This document shows, piece after piece, positions 20,901 to 44,351 of a DNA stretch of 64,000 nt. The notes under the pieces were generated by a model. It did not search any database and was not told the DNA's origin. It saw only the letters and a list, made by a program, of their open reading frames with translations. Source of the DNA: Streptomyces sp. 846.5 (GTDB lineage Bacteria; Actinomycetota; Actinomycetes; Streptomycetales; Streptomycetaceae). The stretch covers positions 682,001 through 746,000 of the forward strand of contig NZ_SOBN01000002.1 of assembly GCF_004365705.1 (NCBI RefSeq). The letters run 5' to 3'. Every line of letters begins with the position of its first letter. Within the stretch, counting starts at the first letter, position 1. A program made the translations under genes and the position numbers.

Positions 20901-23900
20901 CAGTCCGTCGTGGATCACGCCGGCGGTGTGGATCACGGCCGTCAGCGGGTATTCGGCCGGTATCGCGGCCAACAGCGCGGCCAGCGCCTCCCGGTCGGCC
21001 ACGTCAACGGACTCGACGGCGACCTCCGCCCCCAGGGCGATCAGGTCCTCCCGCAGCTGCGTCGCACCCGGAGCCTGCGGACCGCGGCGGCTGACCAGCA
21101 GCAGCCGCCGCACGCCTCGGGTGACCACCAGGTGACGGGCCATCAGGCTGCCCAGCCCACCGGTGCCACCGGTGATCAGCACGGTGCCCGCGGCGACCTC
21201 GGGGCCGAACGCCGACGCCACCGGTTCGCCGTCCAGGGGCCGGACATCCACGGGCCGGCGAGCCAGCCGAGGCGTCAGCAGCACTCCGCCGCGCACCGCC
21301 ACCTGGGTCTCCCCGCACACCAGCGCGGCAGGCGGCAACTGCGCGGGCGACTCCCGGTCGACCAGCACGATCCGGCCCGGATTCTCCGACTGCGCCGAAC
21401 GCACCAGGCCCCACAGCGGCGCGTGCGGCAGATCCGGCACGTCCTCGTCCGGCCCTGCGGCCACCGCTCGGCAGGTCACCACCGCCAGCCGTGTCGACGC
21501 CAACCGGTCGTCGGCCAGCCAGGACTGAAGCACCGTCAGCGCCCAGGCCGTCGCGCCCTCCGCGGCCCCGGCGACGTCGAAGCCCTGGGCCCCGCCCTGA
21601 ACCCCGGTCGCCTGATCGCACAGCAGCAGGACCAGACCCGGCACCGGGTCGCCCGCGTCGACCGCCGCGCGCAGAGCCTCCAGATCGGTATACGTCCAGG
21701 CCGAAATCCCGGACTCGGCCAGTCCTGCGGCCAGTTCCGGACCGCCGGGCCCCAGCAGGGCCCAGCCGCCGGCCCCGGACTCCTGCACCGCAGCGTCCGC
21801 GACCGCCACCACGGGCTGCCAGTCGAGTACGAACAGCGCGTTCTGGTAGGCGGCCCCCGCGCCGGACGGTCCCTCGGCCGGTACCGGACGCAACGACAGC
21901 GACTCCACCGCAGCCACCGGACGGCCCGTGGTGTCCGCGACCGCGAGGGCCACGGTGTCCGTGCCGACCCCGGACAGTCGCACCCGAACGGCGGCCGAGC
22001 CGGAGGCGAAGAGCGACACGCCGCTCCACCCGGACGGCAGCCGGACCCCGTCGAGGACCCCGTCCATGACGCCTGTCATCAGCGTGTGCAGAACCGCGTC
22101 CAGGAGCGCCGGGTGCAGACCGAAGGAGTCCGCCTCCTCCCGCTCCCGCCCGTCCAGCGACACCTCGGCGAAGACCTCCGTGCCGAGCCGCCACATCGCC
22201 CGCAGCCCCTGGAACGCGGGGCCGAAGTCGTAGCCGGCCCCGGCCAGCAGCTCGTGGAGACCGTCCAGAGGAACCGGTTCGGCGCCCTCCGGCGGCCAGA
22301 CGCCGAGGTCAAAAGCGGGGGGCTTGCTCCCGCGGGCCAGCACTCCGGAGGCGTGACGGGTCCAGCTCTGCTCCCACTCCTCGCCGTCCGGCCTGGAGTA
22401 GACCGAGAACGGGCGCCGCCCCGCCTCGTCCGGGGCCTCGACCAGGATCTGCAGCTGCGCGGCGCCCACCTCGGCCAGGAGCAGCGGGGTCTCCACCGCC
22501 AGGGTCTCCAGCAGGTCGCACCCCACCTCGTCCCCGGCCCGGACCACCAGCTCCACGAAGGCGGAGTCGGGCAGCAGCAGTGAGCCACCCACCCTGCGGT
22601 CGGTCAGCCAGGGCTGCGCCTGCACCGAGAGCCGCCCGGTGAGCAGTATCCCCCGCTCATCGGCGAGTTCAACCACCGCGCCCAGCAACGGGTGCCCGGC
22701 CGCGCCCAGTCCGGCCGCGGTCACCCCGGCGGAGGACATGACCGAAGCGGGCAGCCAGTGGCGGCGGCGCTGGAACGCGTACGTGGGCAGCTCGACCCTG
22801 CGGGCGCCGGGCCCCGCGAAGAACGCCGGCCACTGCACCGCCGCACCGCGGGTGTGCAGGGCGGCCACCGCCGACGTCAGACTCCAGGCCTCGGCACGGT
22901 CCTTGCGCAGTGCCGGAACCAGCAGATGTTCGATGACCTCGGTGCCCTCCGCGCCCTCGGCGGCTTCCTTGTCGACGACGTCGACAACACCGTCAGCGCC
23001 GTCAGCGCCGTCCAGGCAGAGTCGGGCCATCGCGGTCAGCGTGCCGTCGGGTCCCAGTTCGAGGAAGCGGGTGGCGCCGTTCTCCGCCAACCGACGGACG
23101 CCGTCATCAAACCGCACGGCGTTGCGAACGTGCTGCACCCAGTACTGGGGGGACGTCAGCTCGCCGGGCCCGACCAACCGGCCGGTGACGGTGGAGACGA
23201 CGGGCAGGCTCGGCTCCTGGTACTTCACGCTCTCCGCCACCCGGCCGAACGCGAGCAGCATCGGTTCCATCAGCGGCGAGTGGAACGCGTGGCTGACCCG
23301 CAGCCGGGTCGCCTTCCGCCCCGACTCCCGGAAGTGCTCGGCGATCGCCTCGACTGCCGTCTCCGCGCCGGAGACCACGATCGCGTCCGGGCCGTTCACC
23401 GCCGCGATGCCGATCTCATCCGCACGGCCCGCGATCAACCGCAGCACCTCGTCCTCGGTCGCCCGCAGCGCGACCATCGCGCCGCCGACGGGCAGTGCCT
23501 GCATCAACTGCCCGCGCGCCACCACCAGTCGGCACGCGTCCGCGAGCGACATCACCCCCGCCACATGGGCGACGGCGATCTCCCCGATGGAGTGCCCCGC
23601 CAGCAGGTCCGGCCGGACGCCCCAGGACTCCACCAGCCGGAACAGTGCCACCTCCAGGGCGAACAACGCCGGTTGCGCATAGCCGGTGGAGTTGAGCAGT
23701 TCCGCGTCGTCCCCGAACACCACGTCGTAGAGCGGTCGTTCCAACTCCGCGTCCACCTGTGCGCAGACCGCGTCGAACGCGGTCGCGAAGACGTCGAAGG
23801 ACTCGTACAACTCCCGGCCCATGCCGAGCCGTTGCGATCCCTGACCGGCGAAGAGAAACGCCGTCCGGCCGCCGACCGCTGCTCCGGTCACCACGTTCGG

Positions 23901-25568
23901 TGCGAACTGGCCTGCAGCCAAGGCTTCCAGACCATGCATCAGCTCCGCACGGTCACCGCCCAGCAGCACCGCCCGGTGCTCGAAGACGGATCGCGTCGTC
24001 ACCAGCGAGTGGCCGATGTCGCGCGGGTCGGCGTCGGGGACCGCGGCCAGGTGCGACAGCAGCCGTGCGGCCTGCTCCTGGACTGCGGCAGGGGTCCGGC
24101 CGGTGATCGACCACGGGATCACCGGCGACGACTCGGTCGCGGTCGGCGGGACGGCCTCCGTCGGCACGTGCACCGGGACGTCCGACGGGGCCTGCTCCAG
24201 GACGACGTGCGCGTTGGTCCCGGACACGCCGAAGGCGGAGACCCCGGCCCGGCGCGGCCGGTCGACCTCCGGCCAGGGGGTGTTCTCCGTCAGCAGGCGC
24301 ACCTCGCCCTGCGACCAGTCCACGTGCGTGGACGGCTCGGTCACATGCAGGGTCGGCGGCAGTACGCCGTGCTGCAGCGCCAGCACCATCTTGATCACAC
24401 CGGCCGCACCGGCCGCCGCCTGGGTGTGCCCGATGTTCGACTTCACCGAGCCGAGCCACAACGGCCGCTCCGGCTCCCGCCCCTGGCCGTATGTCGCCAG
24501 CAGCGCCTGCGCCTCGATCGGGTCGCCCAGCGTGGTTCCGGTTCCATGTGCCTCCACCGCGTCCACGTCCTGCGGCGTCAGCCCGGCTCCGGCCAGGGCG
24601 GCGACGATCACCCGGCGCTGCGAGGGGCCGTTCGGGGCCGTCAGCCCGTTCGACGCGCCATCCTGGTTCACCGCGCTGCCCGTCACCAGCGCGAGCACTG
24701 TGTGCCCGTTGCGCCGTGCGTCCGACAGCCGCTCGACGACGAGCACGCCGATGCCCTCACCCCACGCAGTGCCGTCCGCCGAGTCGGAGAAGGCCTTGCA
24801 CCGTCCGTCCTCCGCGAGCCCCCGCTGCCGACTGAACTCGACGAAGGCGCCGGGCGTCGACATCACCGTCACCCCGCCCGCGAGCGCGAGGTCGCTCTCG
24901 CCCGCCTGCAGCGAGCGCACCGCGAGGTGCAGCGCCACCAGCGCCGACGAGCAGGCCGTGTCCACCGTCAGCGCTGGGCCCTCCAGCCCGAGCACATAGG
25001 ACACCCGACCCGACAGGACGGACGCGGTAGCCGCCGTGGTCAGCTGCCCCTCGGCCTCCTCGGGCCGGTTGAGCAGCAGCGCCACGTAGTCCTGTCCGTT
25101 GGACCCCATGAACACCCCGGTACGGCTGCCGCGCAACGTCCCCGGCTCGATTCCGCCCCGCTCCAGCGCCTCCCACGACGTCTCCAGCAGCAGGCGCTGC
25201 TGCGGGTCCATCGCCATCGCCTCACGCGGCGAGATCCCGAAGAACGAGGCGTCGAACAGGGGCGCGCCATGGACGAATCCGCCGTGCCGCGAGTACGTCG
25301 TCCCCGCGCTTCCTGCGGGGTCGTAGAGCGCGTCCAGGTCCCATCCGCGATCGGTCGGGAGCTCGGTGACCGCGTCCACTCCCTCGGACACCAACCGCCA
25401 CAGGTCGTCGGGCGACGCCACGCCGCCCGGGAAGCGGCAGCCGATACCCACGATGGCGATGGGCTCCTGCTGCCGGGTCTCCGCCTCGTGCAGGCGCTTG
25501 CGGGTCTGGCGAAGATCCGCGGTCACCAGCTTGAGGTAGTCCCGCAGCTTCTCTTCGTTGCTCGCCAT
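14991..25568 (-). CDS. Bimodular type I PKS with complementary inactive domains
   Basis: A 3525-residue PKS with an N-terminal docking helix (residues 1-33). Module 1: KS (Cys206), AT (GHSIGE and HAFH, malonyl type), DH with Arg991 in place of the catalytic His ([10 protein letters not shown]), KR intact (GGTGGLG, Ser and Tyr present, VIHD suggesting B-type), ACP (GFDSL). Module 2: KS intact (DTACSS, HGTGT, NIGH); AT degenerate: GQGxQ reads GDAGG, the nucleophile elbow reads GCSEG (Ser2479), and about 82 residues containing the ASH/AFH motif and catalytic His are missing; DH intact (His2710, [10 protein letters not shown], with LLDAALQ); KR dead (Tyr to His3312, Lys to Thr); ACP GLNSL. There is no thioesterase. 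It starts 169 bp after the P450 stop. Prediction: one malonyl extension, then no cis extension by module 2. Confidence 0.96.
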
Positions 25569-32137: not shown

Positions 32138-32845
32138 CTAGTCCATGACCGTCCGAGCGTCCTGCCAGCGGTCGATGTGCAGCACCTCTTCCAACGGGCG
32201 GCGCGGGCCGGGCCGGAAGCGGGTTCTGACGGTGTGGGCGGTGGGCAGCAGGCCGCCCTGGTGGACGGTGGGTGGGAGACCGAGCAGTTCGGCGACCTCC
32301 CGCTCGCGGTCCAGGTGAACGGTCGTCCAGGCGGTGCCGAGGCCGCGAGTGCGGGCAGCCAGTGCGTAGCTCCAGGCAGCGGGCAGCAGCGAGGCCCACA
32401 CCCCGGCCTGGTTGCCGGCCGGCAACCCTTCGGTGCCCAATTCGAGGCAGGGAATGACCAGTACCGGCACCTGGTGCAGCTTCTCGGCCAGCTCGCGTCC
32501 GCCGGCGACCGTACGACGGGTGGCCTCGTCCACCTCGTGCAGCCGGTTCAAGGTCTCGGCGTTGCGCTGGAAGTAGGCCTCGCGGTAGATCCGGGCCACG
32601 GCGGCGCGGATCGCCGGGTCGGTGAGCACCAGCCAGCGCCAGCGCTGCCGGTTCATGCCGTTGGGCGCCTGGATGGCCAGGCGGAGGCAGTCCTTGACCA
32701 CCTCCAGGTCCACCGGGCGGTCCAGGTCCAGCCCTCGGCGCACGGTGCGCGTGGTGGTCAGCAGTTCGTCGCAGGTCAGGGTGGGCTGCGGCTCGATGTC
32801 GACGTCGGCTCGCGTCAGGGATGTGTCTTTCAGTAGGTGGTGCAC
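32138..32845 (-). CDS. Nitroreductase family protein
   Basis: A 235-residue flavoprotein of the nitroreductase fold. It has the N-terminal FMN-phosphate-binding arginines (TTTRTVRRGL), the APNGMNRQRWRWLVL segment that contacts FMN, and the C-terminal GLGTAWTTVHL stretch. The GTG at 32845 follows GAGGAG. It is the last gene of the seven-gene leftward operon, 37 bp after the UbiA-like gene. Members reduce nitro groups, quinones or enones or dehydrogenate using FMN. Here it may oxidise or reduce a double bond in the unit built by the operon; the substrate is unknown. Confidence 0.85.
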   Translation of the reverse strand: MHHLLKDTSLTRADVDIEPQPTLTCDELLTTTRTVRRGLDLDRPVDLEVVKDCLRLAIQAPNGMNRQRWRWLVLTDPAIRAAVARIYREAYFQRNAETLNRLHEVDEATRRTVAGGRELAEKLHQVPVLVIPCLELGTEGLPAGNQAGVWASLLPAAWSYALAARTRGLGTAWTTVHLDREREVAELLGLPPTVHQGGLLPTAHTVRTRFRPGPRRPLEEVLHIDRWQDARTVMD

Positions 32846-32882
32846 CGGTCTCCTCGCTTGCGTGAATGACGTACGAACGGTC

Positions 32883-33779
32883 TCAGCGCGCGACGGCCGC
32901 CTGGAGCACCAGCAAGAGGTACGAGCCCAGGATGAAACCCATGGCGAGGGGAAGCGGCCAACTCCCGCTGCGCGAGGCGAAGAAGCGCCAGCCACCGAAT
33001 GCGGGCAGGATCGCCATCAGGCAGGGCAGCAGGCTGATCGGCGTCGAGGGCCGGAACAGCACCAGCTCGCACACCACCGCACCGGCTGCCAGACCCAGTG
33101 CGACGGCCGCGCTGCGCTCCGGCCCGAGCACGGCCGAGTAGAGGCGCGCGCCGGGCTCGGAGCTCCAGGCGGTCTTGCGCGCGAACTCGAAGTGCAGGAA
33201 GACGCAGGCGAAGAGGAGGACGAGCGGAACCGCCCGCCAGTCGGCCGCGACAGCGCCGGAGGCGGCCAGCGACGCATACAGGTAGCAGCTCAGCAGCAGC
33301 TGCACCGGGTAGGTGACCAGCAGGTTGAGCAGCAGGCTCTCCCGGACCGCCGTCGACCAGCGCTCCAACTGCGCAAGGAACAGGCCGTAGCCGAGCGCGA
33401 CGAGGACGAGGACCACGGCCGTTGGTGCGAGCGCGGCGTTCAGACCCACCACGACGACAGTGATCACCGCCATCCCGCCGCGCAGTTCGGCGACCGAAAT
33501 CGCACCGGTGACCAGCGGCCGGTCCGGGTGGTGCACACGGTCGTACGCGAGGTCCTTCTGCTCGTCCAGCATGCGAAGGAACAGCAGGGCCAGCACCACG
33601 CTGACCACCCGCACCCCGGTCGCTGCGGAGAGGCGCCAGGCCCCCCGCGACAGGGTGACGGCCGAGCCTTCCAGAGCGAGTGCCCAGAGCAGCCCGTAGG
33701 TGGCGTAGATATGCGGCCGAAACATCTGCAGCACGAACCGGCCCAGCCGGGCCGGTGCCTGAACGGCGGCCGTGGTCAC
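32883..33779 (-). CDS. UbiA-family prenyltransferase-like membrane protein
   Basis: A 298-residue integral membrane protein with about eight transmembrane helices. The first Asp-rich motif of the UbiA family is present (LDEQKDLAYDRVHHPDRPL), binding prenyl diphosphate via Mg. The second motif, normally DxxxD, reads FEFARKT and has lost the aspartates, so activity may be altered. The GTG at 33779 is preferred because AGAGGA lies 6-7 bases upstream; a TTG at 33794 overlaps the preceding stop. It lies in the operon between the AfsA-like and nitroreductase genes. Either a divergent prenyltransferase or another intramembrane transferase. Confidence 0.82.
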   Translation of the reverse strand: MTTAAVQAPARLGRFVLQMFRPHIYATYGLLWALALEGSAVTLSRGAWRLSAATGVRVVSVVLALLFLRMLDEQKDLAYDRVHHPDRPLVTGAISVAELRGGMAVITVVVVGLNAALAPTAVVLVLVALGYGLFLAQLERWSTAVRESLLLNLLVTYPVQLLLSCYLYASLAASGAVAADWRAVPLVLLFACVFLHFEFARKTAWSSEPGARLYSAVLGPERSAAVALGLAAGAVVCELVLFRPSTPISLLPCLMAILPAFGGWRFFASRSGSWPLPLAMGFILGSYLLLVLQAAVAR

Positions 33780-33790
33780 ATGCGGTCCTC

Positions 33791-34774
33791 TCAAGCTCGG
33801 GCGAAGAGTGGCGAACAGGCCGCTGCCAGGTCGGGCCGAGACCGGTCGGCGAGTACGACCCGCGCTTCGGCGACCACCATCCCGGCCTGGTGCATGGAGC
33901 AGTGGATCTCCTCACCGGGCCGGACCGGACCGGTCCGGCACTCCGCGGACAGGTCGAGCTCCGCGAGCGAGCGGAACCGCGCCGACAGGCCGACCAGAAG
34001 GGCCGCAGGCGTCGGCAGCACTCCCGAGTCGACAGCCGCGGTGAGGGCGAGCTGCCGGAACGCCTCCAGTTCGAGCATCCCGGGCACGTGGTCGAGGCGG
34101 TGGTCGAACATCGTCGCGTGCGAGGTGTCGACCACCAGGGTCGCGGCCCGCCCACCGTCCTCGACGGATCGCGGCGGCGAGATCACCGCGTTGTCCGGGT
34201 CGCGGCGGTCGACCAGCGGGGCGTCGATCCGAGGCTCCTGCCACGGGACGGACGGCGTCGCCGGCAGTCCCAGTGCGCTTCTCCGCGTCGCTCGCATCGC
34301 CGTCCACTGCTCCGGCGGCATCCAGGAGTAGTTGATCCTGACCGTCATGGCTTCGCGGTCGTCGATGACCATGGTGTAGCGCACCACCAGACCGATCACA
34401 CCCGTTCGCCCGCGAAGCCGGCGCTCGACCTGGCAGCCGACCACGACGTGCGTCGGGACGTCCTTGGGCGGCGCCAGGGCGGTCCGGTCGAGGACGTCGA
34501 ACTCAACGGTTCGGAGGATGAACTGATATCCCTCCGGCACTCCGAAGAATCGGTGACCCAGGACGAAGATGCCCTGCCTGGCGACCTCCAGGAGCAGCAT
34601 CGGGTCGTAGCTGGTCCGCGGGCCGAGGGTGTCTCCGTAGAAGGCGTGGGCGCGCGGGAGTTGTGCTGCCAGGTGGTAGCTGTCGTCCTCGCGGCGGTGC
34701 GCGTCGGTCAGGAGGACCTCGGCGATCGCCGCTCGGTGCACCAGCCATCTCGGCAGCGTCCGGGTGAACTCCAT
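33791..34774 (-). CDS. AfsA/ScbA-family double hot-dog protein
   Basis: A 327-residue protein with the two A-factor-biosynthesis hot-dog repeats. The first begins LVHRAAIAEVLLTD (residues about 11-24), the second TLVVDTSHATMFDHRLDHVPGMLELEAF (about 217-243, given here in two parts: TLVVDTSHATMF and DHRLDHVPGMLELEAF). AfsA homologues join a beta-ketoacyl chain to dihydroxyacetone phosphate in gamma-butyrolactone synthesis. The ATG at 34774 has AGGAGG at ideal spacing. No butyrolactone receptor (TetR/ArpA type) gene is seen nearby. Being embedded in a seven-gene biosynthetic operon argues for a product-building role, such as esterification to a phosphorylated partner, though a private signalling molecule remains possible. 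Confidence 0.88.
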   Translation of the reverse strand: MEFTRTLPRWLVHRAAIAEVLLTDAHRREDDSYHLAAQLPRAHAFYGDTLGPRTSYDPMLLLEVARQGIFVLGHRFFGVPEGYQFILRTVEFDVLDRTALAPPKDVPTHVVVGCQVERRLRGRTGVIGLVVRYTMVIDDREAMTVRINYSWMPPEQWTAMRATRRSALGLPATPSVPWQEPRIDAPLVDRRDPDNAVISPPRSVEDGGRAATLVVDTSHATMFDHRLDHVPGMLELEAFRQLALTAAVDSGVLPTPAALLVGLSARFRSLAELDLSAECRTGPVRPGEEIHCSMHQAGMVVAEARVVLADRSRPDLAAACSPLFARA

Positions 34775-34798
34775 GCATTCCTCCTGGATCTCTGCGGC

Positions 34799-35782
34799 TC
34801 ATCGCCCCGGCGTCGGGGCTGCGTTCAGTTCGGCCAGGTGCCGCAGCCAGTCGTCGACGCCGGCGCCGTCGAGCACCGGTGCGCGGCCCTCCTGCCTCAT
34901 CGGGAGGACCCGGGACCCGACGATGACGGCGTCCCAGGGGTCGAGCTCCACACCGTGGCTCCAGGCGGCTTCCAGCAACTGCCGGGGGTCGGCCGCCGGG
35001 TCGAGCCGGGGGTGCTCGGACGCCACGCGCCGCAGCCGGTCCACCGCCGGCTCGAAGTCGAGGTCGCGGGGCGTGCACTGGGCGTAGAGCTGATCGGCGA
35101 GCATCCGGGCCCGCTCGGAGCAGTCCCGGCCGCTGAGCGCGGAGCGGTAGATCTGCTCGCGGCGCTCGTCGTCGAAGTGGACGGCGAGCTCGCGCAGCAC
35201 ATCGGCGGGTTCGTCCGGGGTGTGCACCAGGTTCAGCAGGTAGCTGTACCGGCCGAGCAGGTGCCGCAGCTGGCCGGGAACCCTGGCGTCCGGGTCGGTC
35301 GGGCCCTTCAACGCGGTGAGCCGCACCGACGTCGGCACATCGGTCCCGGACTCGGACTCGGACTCGGGGCGGACGACGAGGACCAGGGAGTCGGTGCTGC
35401 CGAGGAAGAGCCGGGCGAGCCGCCGTCGGTACGGGGTGGCGAGGTTCCACTGGAAGTACCAGAGCGAGCGGATCATCGTCCTGGTGAGCCTCGTCGGCTC
35501 GGCCGCGACGATACGGAAGCCCTGTTCGACCAGCCAGTCGATGGCCGGAAAGAGCCGGCGGGCGGCCACCGCGTCGGGCTTGAGCAGCAGCGCCGCGTGC
35601 CGGTTGGCGAAGTGCGCCACATCATCGGTCAGCGCGTCGAGTTGTTCGAAGCTCTCCTGGAAGTAGGTATCGGCACCGTAGAGTCGACGCTTCTCGGGAT
35701 CGCGGCTCAGCAGCGGCGACACCTCGATTCCATACGTCGGTGCCGGGGTCGTCAACGCAGGGGTCATCAGCGCGGGGTTCAT
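34799..35782 (-). CDS. Nucleoside-diphosphate-kinase-like protein with C-terminal extension
   Basis: A 327-residue protein. Residues about 60-220 resemble nucleoside diphosphate kinase: ALLLKPDAV near the start, then TALKGPTDPDARVPGQLR, and the active-site region NLVHTPDEP with the phospho-accepting His kept. NDK is normally about 140 residues; here there is an insertion and a C-terminal domain of about 100 residues without recognised similarity. The start overlaps the SDR stop by 4 bases (ATGA). It may transfer phosphate to a nucleotide or to a small molecule for the neighbouring nucleotidyltransferase. Divergent enough that a non-nucleotide substrate is possible. Confidence 0.72.
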   Translation of the reverse strand: MNPALMTPALTTPAPTYGIEVSPLLSRDPEKRRLYGADTYFQESFEQLDALTDDVAHFANRHAALLLKPDAVAARRLFPAIDWLVEQGFRIVAAEPTRLTRTMIRSLWYFQWNLATPYRRRLARLFLGSTDSLVLVVRPESESESGTDVPTSVRLTALKGPTDPDARVPGQLRHLLGRYSYLLNLVHTPDEPADVLRELAVHFDDERREQIYRSALSGRDCSERARMLADQLYAQCTPRDLDFEPAVDRLRRVASEHPRLDPAADPRQLLEAAWSHGVELDPWDAVIVGSRVLPMRQEGRAPVLDGAGVDDWLRHLAELNAAPTPGR

Positions 35783-36876
35783 ACCCGGGTCCTCTCATCG
35801 AGTCCGGCGAGTGCCGGGACGGAGTCCGGCACGGGCGCGGTGCCCAGGTAGCCGGACTTCAGGCAGTAGTCGAGCAGCCGGCGCAGGTACGGACGGCCCC
35901 CGCCGGGTGCGGGGCGGCTGGAGAAGGCGGCTGCCACGCGGTCGTCGAAGCGGATACGGCGCGAGAAGTAGGTCTCGTAGAGTGAGATCACCCGTTGGTG
36001 GTACGCACGTTCCACCGGGGGCAGTGTCTCGGCGGAGAACGCGGAGGGCGGGACGAACCTTGGCACCTGGAAGGAGGGGTACTCGGCGAGCACGTCGGAG
36101 AAGTCCCGCAGCGTCAGCGGTCGGCCGATGGCGTGCAGGGTCCGGCCCTCGGCCTCGGCGAAGCGGGTCGCCGCCTCGGTCACCAGGTCCGCGACGTAGT
36201 CCACCGGCACGAGGTCCAGGGCCGCGTCGTAGTGCCCGGGCATGGACGTGACCAGGCCCTTGGTGACCAGCTTGAGGATGGGGTAGATGGTCTTGAACTC
36301 GCGGACACAGCCGCTGCGTTCGGCACCCACCACGATGCTCGGCCGGACGACGGCCACCGGCAGGCCGTCCTCGGCTGCCCGGCGTACCAGGATCTCCGCC
36401 CGCAGTTTGCTCTTCTCGTAGTCGTTGCCCGGGAGTTGGCCGACGTCCAGCTCGTCCTCGCGAGCGACCCCGTCCCGCTCGCCGCACACGTACGCGGTGC
36501 TCACGTGCACCAGGGGCACTCGACCGGCCCGGGCCAGGGCCAGCACCTGCTCGGTCCCGGCCACGTTGACGCGCCGGTACTCCTCGTCAGGGCGGCCGAA
36601 GTCGGTGATCGCCGCGCAGTGGACGATCCGGTCGACGGCGGCGACGCGGTGCAGATCCTCGGCGGAGAGACCGAGTCCGGGACGGGTGATGTCCCCGCTG
36701 AGGTGGGTCAGCGTCCCGGGCTTCGGCTTCAGTCTGGTCCCGTTGTTGCGGACCACATCCGCATTGCTGTGCAGCAGGGCCAGCACCGAGTGCCCGGCCT
36801 TGGCCAGCCTCGCGGTCACCTCGGCACCGACGAGCCCGCTCGCGCCGGTGACCAGCACGGTCATCCCATCCGCCAT
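35779..36876 (-). CDS. Thioester-reductase-like / extended SDR protein
   Basis: A 365-residue extended short-chain dehydrogenase. It has the Rossmann motif VTGASGLVGAE, the catalytic pair YEKSK and the substrate-region VRPSIVVGAERSG; the overall pattern matches the reductase domain of thioester reductases and fatty acyl-CoA reductases (NAD-binding 4/male sterility type). The ATG at 36876 shares one base with the nucleotidyltransferase stop (TGATG), so the genes are coupled. Likely NADPH-dependent reduction of a carrier- or CoA-bound thioester to aldehyde or alcohol. In a cluster without a visible thioesterase this is a candidate for reductive chain release; sugar or lipid SDR is the alternative. 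Confidence 0.82.
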   Translation of the reverse strand: MADGMTVLVTGASGLVGAEVTARLAKAGHSVLALLHSNADVVRNNGTRLKPKPGTLTHLSGDITRPGLGLSAEDLHRVAAVDRIVHCAAITDFGRPDEEYRRVNVAGTEQVLALARAGRVPLVHVSTAYVCGERDGVAREDELDVGQLPGNDYEKSKLRAEILVRRAAEDGLPVAVVRPSIVVGAERSGCVREFKTIYPILKLVTKGLVTSMPGHYDAALDLVPVDYVADLVTEAATRFAEAEGRTLHAIGRPLTLRDFSDVLAEYPSFQVPRFVPPSAFSAETLPPVERAYHQRVISLYETYFSRRIRFDDRVAAAFSSRPAPGGGRPYLRRLLDYCLKSGYLGTAPVPDSVPALAGLDERTRV

Positions 36877-38609
36877 CAGCTGTCCTGCCCAGGCGGCCGC
36901 TGCGCCGACAGGTGTGGTTGGGCCCCGTTGCTGGCGATCAGGTCGCGGGCCTCCTGGATGGGCAGGTCGGCCCCCAGATGGGCGCCGAGGCGCAGCCAGT
37001 CGTAGCCGATCTCCAAGGTGGCCCGCCAGCCGTCGGCCGAGTCGAACGAGTCGGGGAACGCGTCGGCCCCGGTGATCCCCCGGACCAGATCGACGAAGGC
37101 CTCCAGCTCGGCCAGCACGGCCGAGCCGTGCTCGGGCGTGTCGATGGTCAGCTGGTCCAGGCGGGTCGCGAGGCCCCGGATCTGCTGGGTGCCGGAGGGC
37201 AGCAGGGTCAGTCGGCGGATCAGATCCGAGTCGGGCGGCAGCGGGTTGACCCCGTAGGCGCTGAACAGGCCGCGCAGGGCCGCCTGGAGAGCGCGGCGGG
37301 CGGTCAGCTCGGCCACTCGCCACTGACCCCGCTGCAGGGCGCCCGCGAGATCCTCCCGGGCGTTCTCGACCAGGACGTTGGACCACACCAGGGCCATCGC
37401 GGCCGCCGCGAACCGTTCGGCCGGGAGCGGTACCAGGTCGATGCTGTCGACAGCGGTGACGGCGGCGCCGCGGACGGTGAGCAGCGGCTGCGCGGTGCTG
37501 GGCGGTGGGGTGATCGGGCCCGGTGGCGCGCCGAGCGGCAGCGCGGGGGTGACCGTGCCGCCGCCCTTCCAGGCGAGCCGGACCAGTCCGAGTCTCAGGA
37601 AGTCCGCCAGCAGGGAGCCGGCCGAGCCGACCCCGGTCGCCTCGGCGCCGGCCAGCACCTGCGGCAGCGACCTGCCGAGGACGAGGGAGCGCCACACCTG
37701 CCCGGCCTGCGGGCCGAGGGCGAACACGTCGCGCCGGCCACGGATCACCTGGACCCGCTCACCGGTCTGCCAGGTGGTCACTCCCGCTCTGCGTTCGACG
37801 GTGAGCCGGTCGGGTCGCCACTGGATGCCGCTGATCCCCAGGTCCTCGGCCAACGCGACGCAGGCGGCGACGTAGTCCGCCGCAGGCAGGTCTCGGGCGG
37901 AGGACTCCAAGGACCAGTAGTGCTCGCGGACCTCGGGCCGATCGACCCGGTCCAGCTGCATGGACAGCCACTTCGGCTCCAGGTAGGTCTCCCCCTGCCA
38001 GGCCGCCCATGCCTTCACCACCTGCACCAGCCCGGCCCGGGCCCAGTCGACGGCCTCCTCCGACTCTCCGAGGCACGCCAGGGCCATCGCCTGCCGGAGC
38101 GACTGCCTGGCGTAGTGCTCCCACCAGTCGCCGGCTGTCCGGCGCAGTTGCTCGGCCGGCAGCAGACCCTTGATCTCGTCCACCAGCGCGTGGCCGCGCA
38201 GCGGGAAGCTGTTCAGCAGCCGCTGGCAGCGGTTCAGCAGGTCCTCCGGAATCCTGGCGACCCGCTTGGCTCCGGCCTGCAACTCCGCGAACTGCTCGGC
38301 GATCTGGCGCACGGTGCGGGTCCGGACCTCGACCCGGCGGCCGTCCACGAAGAGCAGCGAGGGCATCGTGGGCAGGTCGTTCTCGTCGCGGCCGATGAGC
38401 AGGAAGTCGATGTCCGAGGAGGGATTGCCGAATCCCTCGGCGATTGAGCCTTCGAGCACCACCGCCCACTCGTCGCCGGGCCGCAGCTCGGCCAGCGCCT
38501 TGTCCAGCAGTCCTTGCAGGTAGTCCTCGCTGAGGATCACGCGAATGCCTCCGTCCTGGTCCTGGGAGTCTCGAAAGTCCTGGGAGTCTCCGATTTCATG
38601 ACGTTCCAT
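36876..38609 (-). CDS. Nucleotidyltransferase (Pol beta/ANT superfamily)
   Basis: A 577-residue protein. Near the N-terminus EGSIAEGFGNPSSDIDFLL carries the GS-x-x-x-G and D-x-D metal-binding motif of the Pol beta nucleotidyltransferase superfamily. The long C-terminal part is helical, including several ALA-rich segments, with no second domain recognised. The start (38609) overlaps the end of the phosphotransferase gene by 14 bases. The N-terminus contains a short duplicated motif (GDSQD/RDSQD). Relatives adenylate antibiotics or transfer NMP to sugars and phosphates. Together with a rifampicin-phosphotransferase-like and an NDK-like gene, it suggests nucleotide activation or modification of a small molecule. 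Confidence 0.8.
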   Translation of the reverse strand: MERHEIGDSQDFRDSQDQDGGIRVILSEDYLQGLLDKALAELRPGDEWAVVLEGSIAEGFGNPSSDIDFLLIGRDENDLPTMPSLLFVDGRRVEVRTRTVRQIAEQFAELQAGAKRVARIPEDLLNRCQRLLNSFPLRGHALVDEIKGLLPAEQLRRTAGDWWEHYARQSLRQAMALACLGESEEAVDWARAGLVQVVKAWAAWQGETYLEPKWLSMQLDRVDRPEVREHYWSLESSARDLPAADYVAACVALAEDLGISGIQWRPDRLTVERRAGVTTWQTGERVQVIRGRRDVFALGPQAGQVWRSLVLGRSLPQVLAGAEATGVGSAGSLLADFLRLGLVRLAWKGGGTVTPALPLGAPPGPITPPPSTAQPLLTVRGAAVTAVDSIDLVPLPAERFAAAAMALVWSNVLVENAREDLAGALQRGQWRVAELTARRALQAALRGLFSAYGVNPLPPDSDLIRRLTLLPSGTQQIRGLATRLDQLTIDTPEHGSAVLAELEAFVDLVRGITGADAFPDSFDSADGWRATLEIGYDWLRLGAHLGADLPIQEARDLIASNGAQPHLSAQRPPGQDS

Positions 38610-41385
38610 CAGGAACGGCCAGCACCGTCACCGTGCCGGCGCCGCCGTCGACCCGCAGCCGGGTCCCGGAGCGGATCTCCGTGGTGATGTTCTTGACCTG
38701 GACCACCGTGGGGATGCCGAGTTCGCGTGCCACGACGGCGACGTGGGTCAGCGGGCTGCCGCGCTCGATGACCAGCGCAGCAGCGGAGGACAGCGCAGAC
38801 ACCCAGCCGGGGTCGGTCCGGTAGGTCAGCATGATGCCGCCGCCGATGTCGCGCGGGGCGTCGGTGACCACCGCCAGGCCCTCGACGACTCCGGGGCACG
38901 AGGCGGTGCCGCGGAACTCGCGTGCTCCGCTGCGCACCGCGCCGTCCGCGGTCCAGCCGGCGCGTTCGAGGTTGCCCCGCCAGTACGGCGCACCGTGGGT
39001 GGTGAACCTCGACGGGGCACGGAGTTCGGCGTCCTCGGCCAGCTGCCGCCTGCGCACCACGACCAGCTCCCTGAGCTCGGTGTGCGCGATCGAGCCCTCG
39101 AAAGCCCCGCGCAGTTCCTCCAGGCGCAGCAGGAAGACATCGTCCCAGGCGTCGATCGCCTGAATCCTGGCCAGGTCGCGACCCATCGCCCGGAGCATCC
39201 GCTTGGCGGCGCCGAAGGCCCTGGTGCGGCAGAAACGCAGCCGCTCGCGGTCGGCGAGCGACCTGCGGGTCTTGCCGCGCACGAGGTCGTAGACCCAGCG
39301 GCGCGGGCCGCGCAAGCGCTGGTCGAGGTAGTCGTCCGCGTCCGCGCCACGGTCCGGACCCGCCTCCGGCAGGGCGCCGCGCAGCAGGGTGAACAGACCG
39401 GTCGGGTCCTCGCTCAGGTCGGGCACTTCGAGTTTGAGCTCGTCCGGGCTGCGGTAGCCGTACGCGTCGATGTAGGCGTCGACGGCGGCCAGCATCGCGG
39501 TGTGCCCACCGTCCTGCAGGGCCCGGTACAGCTCGCCGTCAGCGGTACGCTCGATCAGCTCCCGCAGCGGCTCGTCGGCGCGGACCAGCGCGGCCATCTC
39601 GGCGAGCGCCTGCACCGGCTCTGCGGACTCCAGTCCCATGCCGGGGGCGGCGGCCGCCAGGGTGAACCACTCGGGCGCGTCGGGCAGCCAGCGTCGGGTC
39701 AGCAGGGTGAGCATGCCGACGGAGAGCAGGATCGTGGCGTCCAGGGCCATCATCGGGCCCCATTTCTCGATCAGTTCCCGCTGCAGCCGACGGAACCGGC
39801 GATATGTCTCCTCGCCCGGCAGCGCATCGTAGTCGACATGGTTGAACACGTCGTACGCCTGGTAGAAACCCCGTTGGAAAGCATCGACGGCCTTCCCCAT
39901 GGCGAGGAATCTGTAGGTGAACACGGCGTATCTGGCCGACCGTGACATGCGGCCGCGCAGGCCCGATGGGGAAATGAAGGGATGGAGACTGGTGGCCATT
40001 TCTTCGGAAAGGCTCTCCTCGACCCCGAGGGAGAATTCGAGCACCCGCCGGGTCAGCGGATAGAGCGGCGCCAGCCGTACCATGCGGTACCAGTGGAAGA
40101 GGTTGTAGTACACCCGGCCGTGGAAGTAGCCCAGCATCTGGGGCGTCCACTCCTGCAGCTGTCGGAGCTGGTCCCCCGACACGTGCAGCGCACGGGCGTA
40201 GTGCTCGTAGACCGTCGCATAGGTATCCGCCGCGAAGCTGAAGGTGAGCGGGGAGACGATCCCGCTGAAGCTCTCGATGATGTTCGAGTTGTCCCAGATC
40301 CGCAGTTCGCCCTCGGGTTCGGGTTCGCCCTCGGGTTCGGGTTCGCCCTCGGGTTTGGGTTCGCCCTCGGGTTTGGGTTCGCCCTCGGGTTTGGGTTCGG
40401 CCTGTAGGGATTCCCGGAGCGGAGTGGTGACGGGCCTGCTCTGCAGGACCCAGACGGTGCCTGCGGCGATCGCCCACTCGATGTCCTGCGGCGCCCCGTA
40501 CAGCTGCGTCGCCAGGACTCCGATCCGGTGCAGGCTGACAAGATCGTCCGCAGTCACCGACAGTGCGTCGCGGTCGGCGGACGGCACCTCCTCGACCACG
40601 CAACCCGACCCCGCGGCAGGGCGGTAGCTCTCTTCCTTACCACCGATCACCGTGTGGACCGGCTCCCCGGTGCCGGCGTCCAGGACCACGGTGTCGGCGT
40701 CCACAGCGCCCGAGACCAGTCCTTCGCCGAGCCCGTACACCGAGCTGACCACGTAAGACCTGGTGCTGCCGGTCGTCGGATCGGCAGTGAACAGCACGCC
40801 GCTCCGCTCAGCGGGCACCATCTGCTGGACGATGACCGCCACGCCGCCCGCGCTCGGCGGCAGGCCCCGCTGCGACCGGTAGTGCAGTGACCGCTCGGAG
40901 AACCCGGAGGCCCAGCAGCTGCGGACCTGCGCCGTCAACTGCTCCAGCCCGGAGACGTTGAGGAAGCTGTCGAACTGGCCCGCGAAGGAGTGCTCCGCGC
41001 CGTCCTCTTCCGCACCGGAGGAGCGGACCGCCACCGGACCCGCTCCGGCCAGCTCGTATGCCGAGGCGAGGGCGGCGGCGACGGGGCCGTCCATGGGTGC
41101 CGCCTCGATGAGTTCGGCGATCTTCGCAGCGACCGCCGCAGGCTGCTGCTCCCAGCCGTCCCCCAGCAGCAGCTCCAACTCCTCGTCGAGGCCGCTGCCG
41201 CGGGCGAACTCGGCGAAGACGTCGAGACCGATCACCGCCCAGCGCGGAACCTGGAACCCGGCGGCGGTGAGCACCTGCAGGTTGCGACCTTTGCCGCCGG
41301 CGGACCGCGCGAACTCATGCGCATCGCTCCTGGGCGTCAGAATGCGCAGCGGCGGAACTGCTGATCCTGCCGTGGCTGACATCAT
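38596..41385 (-). CDS. PEP-synthase-like phosphotransferase, rifampicin-phosphotransferase architecture
   Basis: A 929-residue protein in three parts. Residues about 1-330 are an ATP-grasp/PPDK N-terminal domain (GGKGRNLQVL, VRSSGAEEDG, GVLFTADPTTG, QDIEWAI). A repetitive linker follows (five EGEP(K/E)P units), then a helical region (about 370-830) of unknown specificity, and a C-terminal swivelling His domain (about 840-929) with the phospho-carrier His in RGSPLTHVAVVARELGIP. This order equals that of rifampicin phosphotransferase, which phosphorylates a polyketide with ATP, rather than housekeeping PEP synthase. The ATG at 41385 is preceded by GGAGGA. First gene of the seven-gene operon and probable phosphorylation of a pathway intermediate or of the product for self-protection. 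Confidence 0.88.
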   Translation of the reverse strand: MMSATAGSAVPPLRILTPRSDAHEFARSAGGKGRNLQVLTAAGFQVPRWAVIGLDVFAEFARGSGLDEELELLLGDGWEQQPAAVAAKIAELIEAAPMDGPVAAALASAYELAGAGPVAVRSSGAEEDGAEHSFAGQFDSFLNVSGLEQLTAQVRSCWASGFSERSLHYRSQRGLPPSAGGVAVIVQQMVPAERSGVLFTADPTTGSTRSYVVSSVYGLGEGLVSGAVDADTVVLDAGTGEPVHTVIGGKEESYRPAAGSGCVVEEVPSADRDALSVTADDLVSLHRIGVLATQLYGAPQDIEWAIAAGTVWVLQSRPVTTPLRESLQAEPKPEGEPKPEGEPKPEGEPEPEGEPEPEGELRIWDNSNIIESFSGIVSPLTFSFAADTYATVYEHYARALHVSGDQLRQLQEWTPQMLGYFHGRVYYNLFHWYRMVRLAPLYPLTRRVLEFSLGVEESLSEEMATSLHPFISPSGLRGRMSRSARYAVFTYRFLAMGKAVDAFQRGFYQAYDVFNHVDYDALPGEETYRRFRRLQRELIEKWGPMMALDATILLSVGMLTLLTRRWLPDAPEWFTLAAAAPGMGLESAEPVQALAEMAALVRADEPLRELIERTADGELYRALQDGGHTAMLAAVDAYIDAYGYRSPDELKLEVPDLSEDPTGLFTLLRGALPEAGPDRGADADDYLDQRLRGPRRWVYDLVRGKTRRSLADRERLRFCRTRAFGAAKRMLRAMGRDLARIQAIDAWDDVFLLRLEELRGAFEGSIAHTELRELVVVRRRQLAEDAELRAPSRFTTHGAPYWRGNLERAGWTADGAVRSGAREFRGTASCPGVVEGLAVVTDAPRDIGGGIMLTYRTDPGWVSALSSAAALVIERGSPLTHVAVVARELGIPTVVQVKNITTEIRSGTRLRVDGGAGTVTVLAVPDGTS
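40306..40395. repeat. Five tandem 18-bp units in the phosphotransferase linker
   Basis: The unit ttcgccctcgggttcggg (with a gttt variant) is repeated at 40306, 40324, 40342, 40360 and 40378. It encodes a charged, proline-rich hinge between the ATP-binding and middle domains. Prone to copy-number change. Confidence 0.9.
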
Positions 41386-41497
41386 GGTGGTCTTCCTCCG
41401 ATTCTGCGTCCGGGGTGAGGTAGGACGGCCTGTCGAGGCAGTCTGCGGTCGGCGATCGCGGGTTCGAGTCAGTCATGTGACTGCACCGCGCGGACAT

Positions 41498-41513
41498 CTA
41501 GGGAGATTGCCGA
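41498..41513. promoter_or_regulatory. Putative PAS-LuxR operator between the seven-gene operon and the LAL regulator
   Basis: The site ctagggagattgccga keeps the CTAGGGA arm and 11 of 16 consensus positions. It lies 113 bp before the phosphotransferase start and 88 bp before the divergent LAL gene, so it could act on either or both. Confidence 0.5.
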
Positions 41514-41600
41514 AGTCCCACACCAGGACCCGGAGCTAGAGTTGACGCCCCAGCCAGCCTCTCCAGCCCGCCAGTCCCTGTGCACGGACAGGAGTCGTTC

Positions 41601-44351
41601 TTGACTGCTCCACCCATCTCCGACAACACGTTCGTGGGTCGTGACCTCGAAGCCGCCCGGATCAGAAGCGTGCTGCACCCTTCGCACGGCACCGGGCATG
41701 CTCTCGTCATCACCGGCGAGCCGGGAATCGGCAAGAGCACGCTCCTCGACAGGGAGGTCCGGCACGCTCGCGAGACCGGTCTCCAGGTGCTCCGGGCCGA
41801 AGGCAGCCAGCAGGAGACCGACCTGGCCTTCGCTGGCCTGCATCAGCTCCTCAAGCCGGTGCTGGACCGGGCGGAGAGCCTTCCGGAGCGGCAACGCGAC
41901 GCCCTGCTGGGCGCCTTCGGGATCACCGCCGGGCCTGCGGAGCCCGGTCAGCTGATCATCGGCATCGCGGTCCTCAGCCTGCTGTCGGACCTGGCCGGCA
42001 CCCGTCCCGTGCTGCTCGTGGTCGACGACGCGCAATGGCTGGACCAGGACTCGCTGGAAGTGCTCGGGTTCGTGGCCAGGAGGCTGAGAGACGAGCGGAT
42101 CATGATGCTGAGCGCCGTCCGCAGCGGTGCCCGGCTCCTCGCGTACGCTCACAACCAGCCGGTTGTCGACCTGGGGCCGCTCGATGCGGTCGCCGCGAAC
42201 CAGCTCCTTGACGCACAGCCCCGACCACCCGCCGGTCGCGTCCGACCACGCATCCTGGCCGAGGCGGCGGGTAACCCCCTGGCGCTGGTCGAGTTCGCGA
42301 AAATGGGCTCCGCCCGCGAGCGCGCGCTCGCACCGGCCGGACCGCTGCCGCTCACCGACCGGCTTGAACAGGTCTACAGCGCGACGTTGGACGAACTGCC
42401 CAGTGCCACCCGGCAGGCACTGCTGCTGGCGGCCACCGACACCGGCACCCCGGACGGCGTCGCACCCGAGGTATGGCTGCCCGCGGAGAAGGCCGGCCTG
42501 GTCCGCGTCCGCGACGGCCACGTCCGGTTCCGCCACCCGCTCATCCGGTCCGCCGTCTACCACGCCGCGGCCCCGCCGGAACGCCACCTGGCCCACCTCA
42601 TCTGGGCCGAGGCACTGCACGATGTCCCGGACCGACGCACCTGGCATCTGGCCGCCGCGAGCAACGGCCCGGACGAGAGCGTGGCCCAGGCACTGGAGCG
42701 CACTGCCGGTCAGGTCCAGCAGCGGGGCGGCTTCGCGGCGGCGGCCCAGGCGCTCCAGCAGGCCGGCGAACTCAGCCCCGAACCCCGTGACGCCGCACGG
42801 CGGTTCACCCGCGCCGCCGGCATCGCGATCCTCACTGGCGACACGGGCTGGGTCGAGGAGCTGACGGCCCGGGTCGACTCACTCACCGACGACCCCGTGC
42901 AGCTCGCACTCGCCGCACTGCGCCGGGGCCAGGCCCTCGCCCTCACCCCCCGCCGTACTCTCGCCTACCCGCTGCTGCTGCGCACGGCCGAGACCCTCGC
43001 GCGGCTCCACCCGGCACCGGCGCTTGAGGCCCTCGCCGCAGCGGCCCTGGTCAGCTACTACCACGGGGATATCTCCCAGCGAGACGACTTCCGGCGCGTG
43101 CTGTCCCTCCTGGGCAGGACGCCGCTCGGCGGGACGCCGAAGGAGCACGACGGCGGGCTGGCGGAACTCTGGATCCGGGCAGCGACCGATCCTCCGTCCG
43201 GCAGAGCGGCGAACCTCTCCGAACTGCGCCGGCTGGTCTCGGCCGGACCATCCGGGTCCGGGCCGCTGACCGCCCTGGCCACCGTCGCCTGGGTTCTCGA
43301 CGAAACCGCGCTGGCCGTCTCCCTGTTCGGCACGGCGGCACAATCCTCGCCCGCGTCAGCGAGGCTGCCGGACGCGCTCCGCTGCGTCGCGGGCTGGGCC
43401 TGTCTGGAGGAGGGCGAGTGGACGCGGGCACGGGACATCGCGAGCGGCTCGATCCGCGCGGCAGCCGAAGCCCGACCCCCGCACCGGGCGCCATCGGCGT
43501 TGACACTCGACGCCGCCGTCCTCGCCCTCCAGGGGGACTCCGGGGCGGCACGGGAATCGGCCATGAAAGCGCTGGCCTGCGTGACGGCACGTGACACCTT
43601 CGTGATCGTCCGGGCCCGCTGGGCGCTGGGGATCGCAGCAGCGGCGCAGGGCGACCATGAGACCGCGTTCGACCAGTTCCGCATGATGTTCACCGCCGAC
43701 GGATCACCAGTGCACTACCACGCGTCCGCCGTGGGCCTGGCCGATCTCGCCGCGGCAGCGGTTCGCGGCGGGCGGCGTGACGGCGCGCGCACGGTCGTGA
43801 ACCGGGCGGCGCGCCACCTGGAGCACGCCTCACCACGTCAACGCGTCCTGCTCTCGCGGGCAAGGGCGCTGCTGGCCGGCCCCGACGATGCCGAACGCCA
43901 CTTCCGAGCCGCGCTCGACGAGCCGTCCAGCGAGGATCGGCCGTTCGAGCATGCTCTGACGCAGTTGGACTACGCGGAATGGCTCCGTCGGCAACTCCGC
44001 CCGAGCCAGGCACGCCCGTTGCTGGCCGCCGGGCTGGAGACCTTCCGCAGGCTGGGCGCCCAGCCGTGGACCGATCGCACGCTGTCCGAACTGCGCGCGG
44101 TCGGGGTTCGCGAGGCCACCAGCGCTCCGCCGACGCTGCGGGCACTCACCCCGCAGCAACGGCAGATCGTGCACCTGGCTGCCCGTGGACTGACCAACCG
44201 CGAGATCGGCGAGCGGTTGCTGCTCTCCCCACGCACCGTCAGTTCACACCTCTACCGGTCCTTTCCCAAACTGGGGGTCACCGCCCGCTCCCAGCTCCGC
44301 GACCTCGTCGACGGCACCATGACCGACCCGAGAACCTTCGCCCACCGCTGA
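41601..44351 (+). CDS. LAL-family LuxR transcriptional regulator
   Basis: A large ATP-binding regulator of about 916 residues. The N-terminal ATPase has Walker A GEPGIGKST and Walker B LLVVDDAQW; a long helical/TPR-like middle region follows; the C-terminal LuxR helix-turn-helix is clear (LTPQQRQIVHLAARGLTNRE ... ERLLLSPRTVSSHL). The TTG at 41601 is chosen because AGGAG precedes it by 6 bases; a GTG at 41580 lacks a ribosome site. LAL regulators are typical pathway activators of macrolide clusters. It is divergent from the seven-gene operon and marks the right border of the cluster. With the PAS-LuxR protein it may form a two-level cascade, as in polyene clusters. Confidence 0.93.
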   Translation: MTAPPISDNTFVGRDLEAARIRSVLHPSHGTGHALVITGEPGIGKSTLLDREVRHARETGLQVLRAEGSQQETDLAFAGLHQLLKPVLDRAESLPERQRDALLGAFGITAGPAEPGQLIIGIAVLSLLSDLAGTRPVLLVVDDAQWLDQDSLEVLGFVARRLRDERIMMLSAVRSGARLLAYAHNQPVVDLGPLDAVAANQLLDAQPRPPAGRVRPRILAEAAGNPLALVEFAKMGSARERALAPAGPLPLTDRLEQVYSATLDELPSATRQALLLAATDTGTPDGVAPEVWLPAEKAGLVRVRDGHVRFRHPLIRSAVYHAAAPPERHLAHLIWAEALHDVPDRRTWHLAAASNGPDESVAQALERTAGQVQQRGGFAAAAQALQQAGELSPEPRDAARRFTRAAGIAILTGDTGWVEELTARVDSLTDDPVQLALAALRRGQALALTPRRTLAYPLLLRTAETLARLHPAPALEALAAAALVSYYHGDISQRDDFRRVLSLLGRTPLGGTPKEHDGGLAELWIRAATDPPSGRAANLSELRRLVSAGPSGSGPLTALATVAWVLDETALAVSLFGTAAQSSPASARLPDALRCVAGWACLEEGEWTRARDIASGSIRAAAEARPPHRAPSALTLDAAVLALQGDSGAARESAMKALACVTARDTFVIVRARWALGIAAAAQGDHETAFDQFRMMFTADGSPVHYHASAVGLADLAAAAVRGGRRDGARTVVNRAARHLEHASPRQRVLLSRARALLAGPDDAERHFRAALDEPSSEDRPFEHALTQLDYAEWLRRQLRPSQARPLLAAGLETFRRLGAQPWTDRTLSELRAVGVREATSAPPTLRALTPQQRQIVHLAARGLTNREIGERLLLSPRTVSSHLYRSFPKLGVTARSQLRDLVDGTMTDPRTFAHR

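Follow-up and report, generated by a model that had tools for sequence, protein, structure and literature searches.

A probable reduced salinipostin-type operon, often tied to polyketide synthase genes, in Streptomyces sp. 846.5

What could a compact operon that joins phosphoryl transfer, nucleotidylation, AfsA and UbiA chemistry be making at the edge of a giant polyketide synthase (PKS) cluster? The question is raised by seven genes of Streptomyces sp. 846.5, found in a 64,000-nucleotide stretch of contig NZ_SOBN01000002.1 (positions 682,001 to 746,000; hereafter the window). An initial annotation, made from the letters alone, had named seven gene families, co-directional and with overlaps or short gaps, and had been unable to match the set to a described pathway. 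Pfam, NCBIfam and a reading of the junctions bore out all seven families, tightly packed on the minus strand at the coordinates first given. The second statement was wrong, six of the seven genes being spt genes of Salinispora tropica. We consider it very probable that the operon is a reduced spt-type (salinipostin-type) variant, in which spt1, 3, 5, 6, 7 and 9 are kept, a nitroreductase replaces Spt8, and there is neither spt2 (encoding a fatty acyl-AMP ligase, FAAL) nor spt4 (encoding an acyl carrier protein, ACP).

Gene A (38596..41385) encodes a 929-residue protein with a PPDK_N and a phosphohistidine mobile domain (counterpart of Spt1), gene B (36876..38609) a 577-residue nucleotidyltransferase of the Pol beta type (MNT-like; NT, Spt3), gene C (35779..36876) a short-chain dehydrogenase/reductase (SDR) of the thioester-reductase type (Spt5) and gene D (34799..35782) a protein resembling nucleoside diphosphate kinase (NDK), with N- and C-terminal extensions (Spt6). 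They are followed by gene E (33791..34774), for a 327-residue AfsA-type phosphorylated butenolide synthase (Spt9), gene F (32883..33794), for a UbiA-like membrane protein (Spt7), and gene G (32138..32845), for a nitroreductase-family flavoprotein in place of the luciferase-like Spt8 of Salinispora. The spt numbers were assigned from gene order. The families of A, C, E, F and G were read from Pfam and NCBIfam, with a tree added for E and an alignment for F; that of D came from Pfam and an alignment, and that of B from profiles and an alignment. As read from the sequence, A and B overlap by 14 nt, B and C share 1 nt (TGATG, the ATG of gene C at 36876 overlapping the stop codon of gene B), and C/D and E/F overlap by 4 nt each; gaps of 24 nt and 37 nt separate D from E and F from G. 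The first in-frame start of gene G, at 32995, would give a 285-residue frame; an AGGAG-type site lies upstream of the GTG at 32845, and translation most likely begins there and not at 32995.

Salinipostins are lipids built on a rare phosphate triester. Few phosphotriesters occur in nature, and spt-type operons are known for making those with a gamma-butyrolactone. The nine-gene spt operon of Salinispora, which Kudo et al. (2020) and Creamer et al. (2021) are said to have linked to salinipostins, reportedly also gives the Sal-GBLs. In one genome, G1053, the NT gene lies at 4.72 of 5.18 Mb among nine genes spread over 11.06 kb, in the order PPDK, FAAL, NT, small ACP, SDR, NDK, UbiA, luciferase-like oxidoreductase and, last, AfsA. 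The same genome encodes, near 1.155 Mb, a protein with a ketosynthase (KS), two acyltransferase (AT), two ACP and one condensation domain, followed by an adenylation-peptidyl carrier protein; we presume this pair to be of the salinosporamide type, from its likeness to SalA/SalB. We take G1053 to be Salinispora tropica CNB-440, and its nine genes fit spt1 to spt9. Table 1 of PMC7888443 gives the spt operon of that strain as RS20900-RS20940, 11.1 kb, product salinipostin; these are nine tags if the numbering steps by five.

Compared with the S. tropica operon (locus L125), genes A, B, C and F are 54%, 48%, 52% and 38% identical to their counterparts and lie on the same strand, so that PPDK, NT, SDR, NDK and UbiA genes stand in one operon with AfsA, at 38-54% identity. 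By gene order, we infer that six of the seven genes correspond to spt1, 3, 5, 6, 7 and 9. Both operons hold the PPDK-like, NT, SDR, NDK-like, UbiA-like and AfsA genes co-directionally, with PPDK, NT, SDR and NDK in the same relative order. They differ in that the window lacks FAAL (spt2) and ACP (spt4), has a nitroreductase for the luciferase-like Spt8, places AfsA before UbiA and not last, and adjoins a giant PKS cluster. In the NT tree, Micromonosporaceae and Streptomyces sequences were split from the Nocardia-side ones at 100/100. The set named in the initial annotation is thus largely present in a characterised cluster, six of its seven genes being found in spt, with FAAL, ACP and Spt8 as the differences. 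The operon thus belongs to a known kind, in a reduced form that is often PKS-linked, and the spt match removes most of the surprise.

The NT protein, chosen as the most distinctive of the seven, served as search marker. A scan of named genomes with an NT profile yielded 79 loci, from the best 80 of 101 confirmed stretches, in Streptomyces, Streptantibioticus, Nocardia, Rhodococcus, Gordonia, Tsukamurella, Mycobacterium and Mycolicibacterium. The neighbourhood comparison suggested in the initial annotation confirmed conserved co-occurrence: taking the best match per gene within 9 kb of NT, the order PPDK-NT-SDR-NDK-AfsA-UbiA was found on one strand in 75 of the 79 loci, some with FAAL or nitroreductase interposed. 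Contig ends interrupt the remaining four (L052, L080, L093 and L108); the grouping is not due to chance. Written with the gene letters A to G, and X for FAAL, the patterns were AXBCDEF (26 loci), AXBCDEGF (24), ABCDEFG (20), ABCDEGF (3) and ABCDEF (2), plus the four cut loci; ABCDEFG is the pattern of the window, and all 20 of these loci are in Streptomyces. The FAAL-containing spt-like operons of Streptomyces, Streptantibioticus, Rhodococcus rhodnii and Nocardia (for example L053, L062, L063 and L070) keep genes A to F in the window's order, some with a nitroreductase between AfsA and UbiA, but unlike the window they carry FAAL and ACP. As the set covers the best 80 of the 101 confirmed stretches, variants may be missing from it; Salinispora was not among them and was reached through a Micromonosporaceae search. 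The Micromonosporaceae genomes were chosen through the 97% identity of one of them to a 16S fragment; the NT profile matched 13 of 354, of which six were opened (the unopened ones include the two weakest, G1039 and G819). AfsA came last, after UbiA, in five of the six.

At E <= 1e-20, and with the window's own genome counted, NT was found in 8 of 394 genomes of its family (Streptomycetaceae); it was found in 6 of 394 genomes of its class, own genome again counted. All 13 other genomes examined of its genus were devoid of NT, which makes the operon patchy and probably horizontally mobile. A search of plasmids with NT gave no match.

The reduction was then quantified over 86 loci, namely the window, the 79 named loci and the six from Micromonosporaceae, by counting a FAAL within 4 kb and an ACP within 3.5 kb of NT. 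Loci L163 and L164 entered none of the counts. Copies relocated beyond these distances are possible in every genome except, for FAAL, the window's own, which was searched whole: the operon there has no FAAL, and the best match elsewhere in the genome reached 33% identity. An AMP-binding protein at 4844-7966 of the window matches FAAL at 27%. Between the overlapping genes B and C there is no room for an ACP. FAAL was seen near NT in 58 of the 86 loci and was missing from 28 (one of these, L108, ends before the expected FAAL position). ACP-like matches followed the same division, occurring in none of the 28 FAAL-less loci and in 57 of the 58 with FAAL; the exception, L129, is rearranged. On an NT tree built from 40 loci (41 of the 86 were given and L129 was dropped), the FAAL label needed at least 3 changes. 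Together with the paired pattern, this argues for repeated loss, or regain, of FAAL and ACP as a unit. The other genes persisted through at least three changes of this paired module, which divides the operon into a lipid-activation half and a core half.

Could the loss of FAAL and ACP have left a decaying remnant that makes nothing? Such a history would account for the absence of two of the nine spt genes and of any close FAAL elsewhere in the genome (the best being the 33% match). On the other hand, the seven frames are intact, their junctions coupled and the active-site positions conserved, and the FAAL-less form is common to 28 of 86 loci, including a well-supported clade that makes up 15 of the 40 rows of the NT tree. 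A remnant is accordingly very hard to credit. On the Nocardia side, FAAL and NT seem to lie in one open frame in L013 (7113-10637), a possible fusion protein, and L020, L021 and L022, also of the Nocardia family, have an open frame long enough to encode both.

The reductase differs as well. No luciferase-like (spt8) match was found near the window operon, where the nitroreductase is present instead. Across the loci, the nitroreductase occurred in 25 of the 28 FAAL-less and 24 of the 58 FAAL loci, and the luciferase-like gene in seven of the 86, five from Micromonosporaceae and two from Nocardia (L081 and L089). The two genes were mutually exclusive except in L089, which fits two alternative reductases, and the swap points to the ring reductase. 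In 31 of the 86 loci, a few of which contig ends interrupt, neither oxidoreductase was found; there must be other solutions, or reductases that are more distant.

We examined how well each protein fits its family. Pfam matches were obtained for PPDK_N (E 2e-70) and PEP-utilizers (E 5e-19) in gene A, NAD_binding_4/thioester-reductase type SDR in gene C (E 8e-44), NDK in gene D (E 1e-10), AfsA in gene E (E 1e-39, with the ScbA/BarX equivalog model passed by a small margin) and nitroreductase in gene G (E 4e-19). The NTP_transf_2 match of gene B (E 1.7e-4) barely passed the Pfam cut-off, and the UbiA match of gene F (E 8e-5) reached 22.5 bits against a cut-off of 34. These last two are weak taken alone, but the aligned families keep the expected motifs, except for the second UbiA motif. 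His881 of gene A, in SPLTHVA, was at least 95% conserved in a family alignment of 84 sequences, as were, in the alignments of their own families, Y154-x3-K158 of gene C and, in gene D, K68 and the phospho-accepting His187 position (N184-x-x-H187). In gene B, G54-S55...D66-x-D68 and E94 were invariant in 24 aligned sequences, and in gene F the first Asp-rich motif (D77/D81/D85) and R92-P93 were conserved. We presume that these motifs hold the catalytic residues, and their conservation in PPDK, NT, SDR, NDK and the first UbiA motif supports the assignment to a reduced spt-type operon.

Gene A passes the cut-off of NCBIfam NF004881, named phosphoenolpyruvate synthase, which we take to be a generic label. 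Its Pfam matches comprise only PPDK_N and the mobile domain, without the phosphoenolpyruvate-binding TIM barrel PF02896, and an identity as phosphoenolpyruvate synthase was rejected on this ground. The best solved matches, 5hv1-5hv3 and 5fbs-5fbu, were deposited under that same name but are rifampin phosphotransferases; the first label, rifampicin-phosphotransferase-like, was therefore fair. In the absence of the barrel, an alcohol is the more likely substrate of gene A, to be phosphorylated or coupled in the manner of rifampin phosphotransferase. For gene F a single solved relative was listed, digeranylgeranylglyceryl phosphate synthase (a weak match, E 0.004), an enzyme that attaches a prenyl chain to a phosphate-bearing acceptor. 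The NT profile found no convincing match in the PDB (best E 0.005); from the look of its sequence, the C-terminal half of NT might be PqqD-like.

These assignments allow a pathway to be proposed. According to PMC7756379, AfsA-type enzymes condense beta-keto thioesters with dihydroxyacetone phosphate (DHAP) to give a phosphorylated butenolide. In the window, gene E would likewise join a beta-ketoacyl thioester and DHAP into a phosphorylated butenolide, the ring double bond of which the nitroreductase would then reduce. The SDR would reduce an acyl thioester to a fatty alcohol, with acyl-CoA or a different carrier presumably supplying the acyl group in place of the absent FAAL/ACP pair. The PPDK-like protein could use its histidine to transfer a phosphate from ATP to this alcohol, to which the NDK-like protein may attach another. 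Least certain is the closing step, in which NT would activate the butyrolactone phosphate so that the enol oxygen closes a cyclic phosphodiester, and the UbiA-like protein would transfer the alkyl chain from its diphosphate to yield the phosphotriester. The product is likely a cyclic enol-phosphotriester of the salinipostin/cyclipostin type and/or its gamma-butyrolactone, each single step being conjectural. The suggestion of the initial annotation that the operon builds and attaches an unusual phosphorylated unit thus stands in outline, given what spt-type operons are known for. Triester formation is not settled enzyme by enzyme in the literature consulted, in which we found no paper on spt enzymology or on PKS-linked spt operons; as this literature was a part of what exists, with few subscription papers, such work may nevertheless have been published.

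The lack of a HAD phosphatase among the seven genes is also in line with retention of the phosphate by the pathway. A canonical gamma-butyrolactone locus has such a phosphatase next to AfsA, removing the DHAP phosphate, and it was indeed seen there in two (L134 and L137) of five other AfsA regions fetched, the flanks of L133-L136 being only 0.5 kb. L134 and L137 share an enzyme of the AfsA family (AfsA/ScbA/BarX) with the window but differ in two ways: they have the HAD phosphatase together with an aldo/keto reductase, and their displayed features include neither phosphoryl nor nucleotidyl transferases. L137, on plasmid pFiD188 of Rhodococcus fascians, places AfsA with the HAD phosphatase, an FAD monooxygenase, the aldo/keto reductase and transporters, as another butenolide-type operon, and has no other spt-type genes among the features shown. 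With no phosphatase and a surplus of phosphoryl-transfer genes, a plain butyrolactone locus was not preferred for the window.

A related idea is that the operon makes only a butyrolactone-type autoregulator, like the Sal-GBLs, which would activate the giant polyketide cluster by way of the LAL regulator next to the operon. The LAL/LuxR-type gene (41580..44351, plus strand), identified by profile search and comparison with 12 contigs, accompanies the operon and is separated from it by a divergent intergenic region of 194 bp (41386..41579). This region is the probable operon promoter by position; it contains no sigma-70 consensus site, and the promoter and terminator scan gave nothing above chance. 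The genome G034, described below, has the PKS neighbourhood without the operon, and afsA-like genes are stated in PMC7480387 to be common in or near antibiotic clusters. Against a signalling role alone, a plain butyrolactone needs AfsA, dephosphorylation and reduction; PPDK, NDK, NT and UbiA would be superfluous, yet they are kept in all complete named loci. Nor is there a HAD phosphatase or an ArpA-like receptor among the seven genes, the receptor search having covered these genes and not their surroundings. We regard the autoregulator as possible but unlikely.

Several observations weigh against the assignment to a reduced spt-type operon. An AfsA-type gene is present, as spt9 is in spt, yet gene E is only 30% identical to the S. 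tropica protein, no closer than plasmid AfsA proteins (31-37% among the best 40 of 159 records). An AfsA tree that included 23 spt-type AfsAs did not resolve a single origin for them; two of its own-genome rows were apparently extracted in the wrong frame, and only its well-supported subgroups are usable. In gene F, FEFARK stands in place of the second Asp-rich motif typical of UbiA enzymes. In L129, of the Micromonosporaceae, PPDK, FAAL, NT and a displaced SDR are the only operon genes, with no NDK, AfsA or UbiA in 19.5 kb. Without FAAL and ACP the product may have another alkyl group or lack one altogether, and we know of no product of the window's strain. As a separate observation, a third AfsA-type gene of this genome (L004, at C1:541383) lies in a 1069-residue open frame, perhaps as a fused AfsA domain.

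What, then, of the polyketide setting? The window lies near the right edge of a giant modular PKS, with 25 KS matches in 562001-786000 of contig C2. The operon's neighbour is a two-module PKS (14991..25568, minus strand; domain search) with an N-terminal docking domain, no thioesterase (TE) and no C-terminal docking tail, the last ACP being followed by only a few residues. Of the other seven subunit ends examined, six have about 85-95 residues in that position, and the seventh, at the left, bears a TE; two KS matches further left were not included among these eight ends. A cytochrome P450 gene (30695..31981, plus strand), found by the same means as the LAL gene, accompanies the operon and is convergent to it here.

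Similar surroundings recurred in other genomes. Markers of this cluster (PKS, KAS III, P450 or LAL) were found beside the operon in 9 of the 27 FAAL-less named loci, all nine on Streptomyces contigs; the other 18 had none at high identity, in DNA reaching at most 10 kb either side of NT and in some cases cut by contig ends. Among the nine, PKS domains themselves were seen in seven (S. monashensis had only KAS III), KAS III in seven, P450 in six and LAL in five. In the 12 contigs searched, LAL matched at 61-65% identity over about 900 residues in four, with a 98-residue match in a fifth, and the P450 at 65-72% in six. In five of the nine (DI166, S. bungoensis, sp. HD, NRRL S-646 and S. actuosus) a GFO/IDH oxidoreductase gene and an ABC-2 pair enclose the operon; S. 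griseoruber, DSM 15324 and S. humidus have the ABC-2 pair after the operon, with no GFO gene found before it. KS modules flank the operon on both sides in DI166, S. griseoruber and DSM 15324, and S. bungoensis has KS modules on one side and ketoreductase (KR) and AT domains on the other.

In the window's own genome the GFO and ABC-2 genes stand next to each other; about 57 kb from them, toward the other end of the cluster, is the operon, accompanied by P450 and LAL but not by KAS III, so that the link to this PKS family survived rearrangement or was made twice. G034 is an empty site: it reads KS-GFO-ABC-P450-P450-KS with nothing between GFO and ABC, and the genome has no NT match. A tandem-P450 marker was present at an identity of at least 79% in 5 of 394 genomes of the family, four of which have the operon. 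Conversely, no type I PKS was found within about 22-27 kb of three FAAL-less loci, those of S. djakartensis and S. aureus, each followed in both directions, and that of S. naganishii, followed in one; S. djakartensis showed one 32% KS-like match. The operon is thus a separable cassette, often, not always, tied to one PKS family. Since the cassette is portable within a giant PKS family and G034 lacks it at the site, nature provides a presence/absence comparison for the operon's contribution to that cluster.

The initial annotation had also proposed that the operon modifies the polyketide. In its strongest form, the operon would tailor or supply the giant polyketide, the PKS chain replacing the fatty acid of FAAL/ACP and the phosphotriester unit carrying the polyketide chain or hanging on the polyketide. 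The repeated linkage to one PKS family, in the nine Streptomyces contigs and in the own genome despite the operon's different place there, gives this some support, as does the end of the adjoining two-module PKS in an ACP without TE or docking tail. An AfsA-like domain is, moreover, known to release polyketides with DHAP, in the gladiostatin PKS (PMC7756379). That possible parallel is limited: in gladiostatin the domain is fused to the C-terminus of the last PKS module, while gene E is a free protein of a seven-gene operon and a TE ends one giant-PKS subunit, and release of the gladiostatin type was rejected. The giant PKS has its own TE; both modules of the two-module PKS contain a KR, which would leave no beta-keto thioester for AfsA unless a KR is idle. 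The three FAAL-less operons without type I PKS nearby, the 18 marker-free loci and G034, with PKS and no operon, also speak against polyketide modification, and we find a tailoring or supplying role improbable.

Still a little more doubtful is a variant in which a reduced spt module was captured and rewired by the giant PKS cluster. The SDR would reduce a PKS-made chain, for example from the neighbouring two-module PKS with its bare last ACP; once phosphorylated, the chain would be linked to the butyrolactone phosphate made by AfsA, the outcome being a hybrid of polyketide and phosphotriester. For self-protection, also raised at the outset, nothing was found in favour, and we rejected protection against the polyketide by the rifampicin-phosphotransferase-like enzyme as the principal explanation: the gene is fixed in spt-type operons, also where there is no PKS.

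Two features at the left of the window concern the PKS genes. A sulfotransferase gene (2709-4073) adjoins a PKS subunit and had no match in the 12 related contigs searched, the clusters of which are incomplete; a sulfated polyketide may be special to the window's strain. At 4844-8931, the gene for the AMP-binding protein (1040 residues) is followed directly by a Replic_Relax (replication-relaxation) gene and then, at 9063-10451, by a DDE transposase gene. The layout of 4844-10451 suggests a mobile-element insertion beside the PKS genes.

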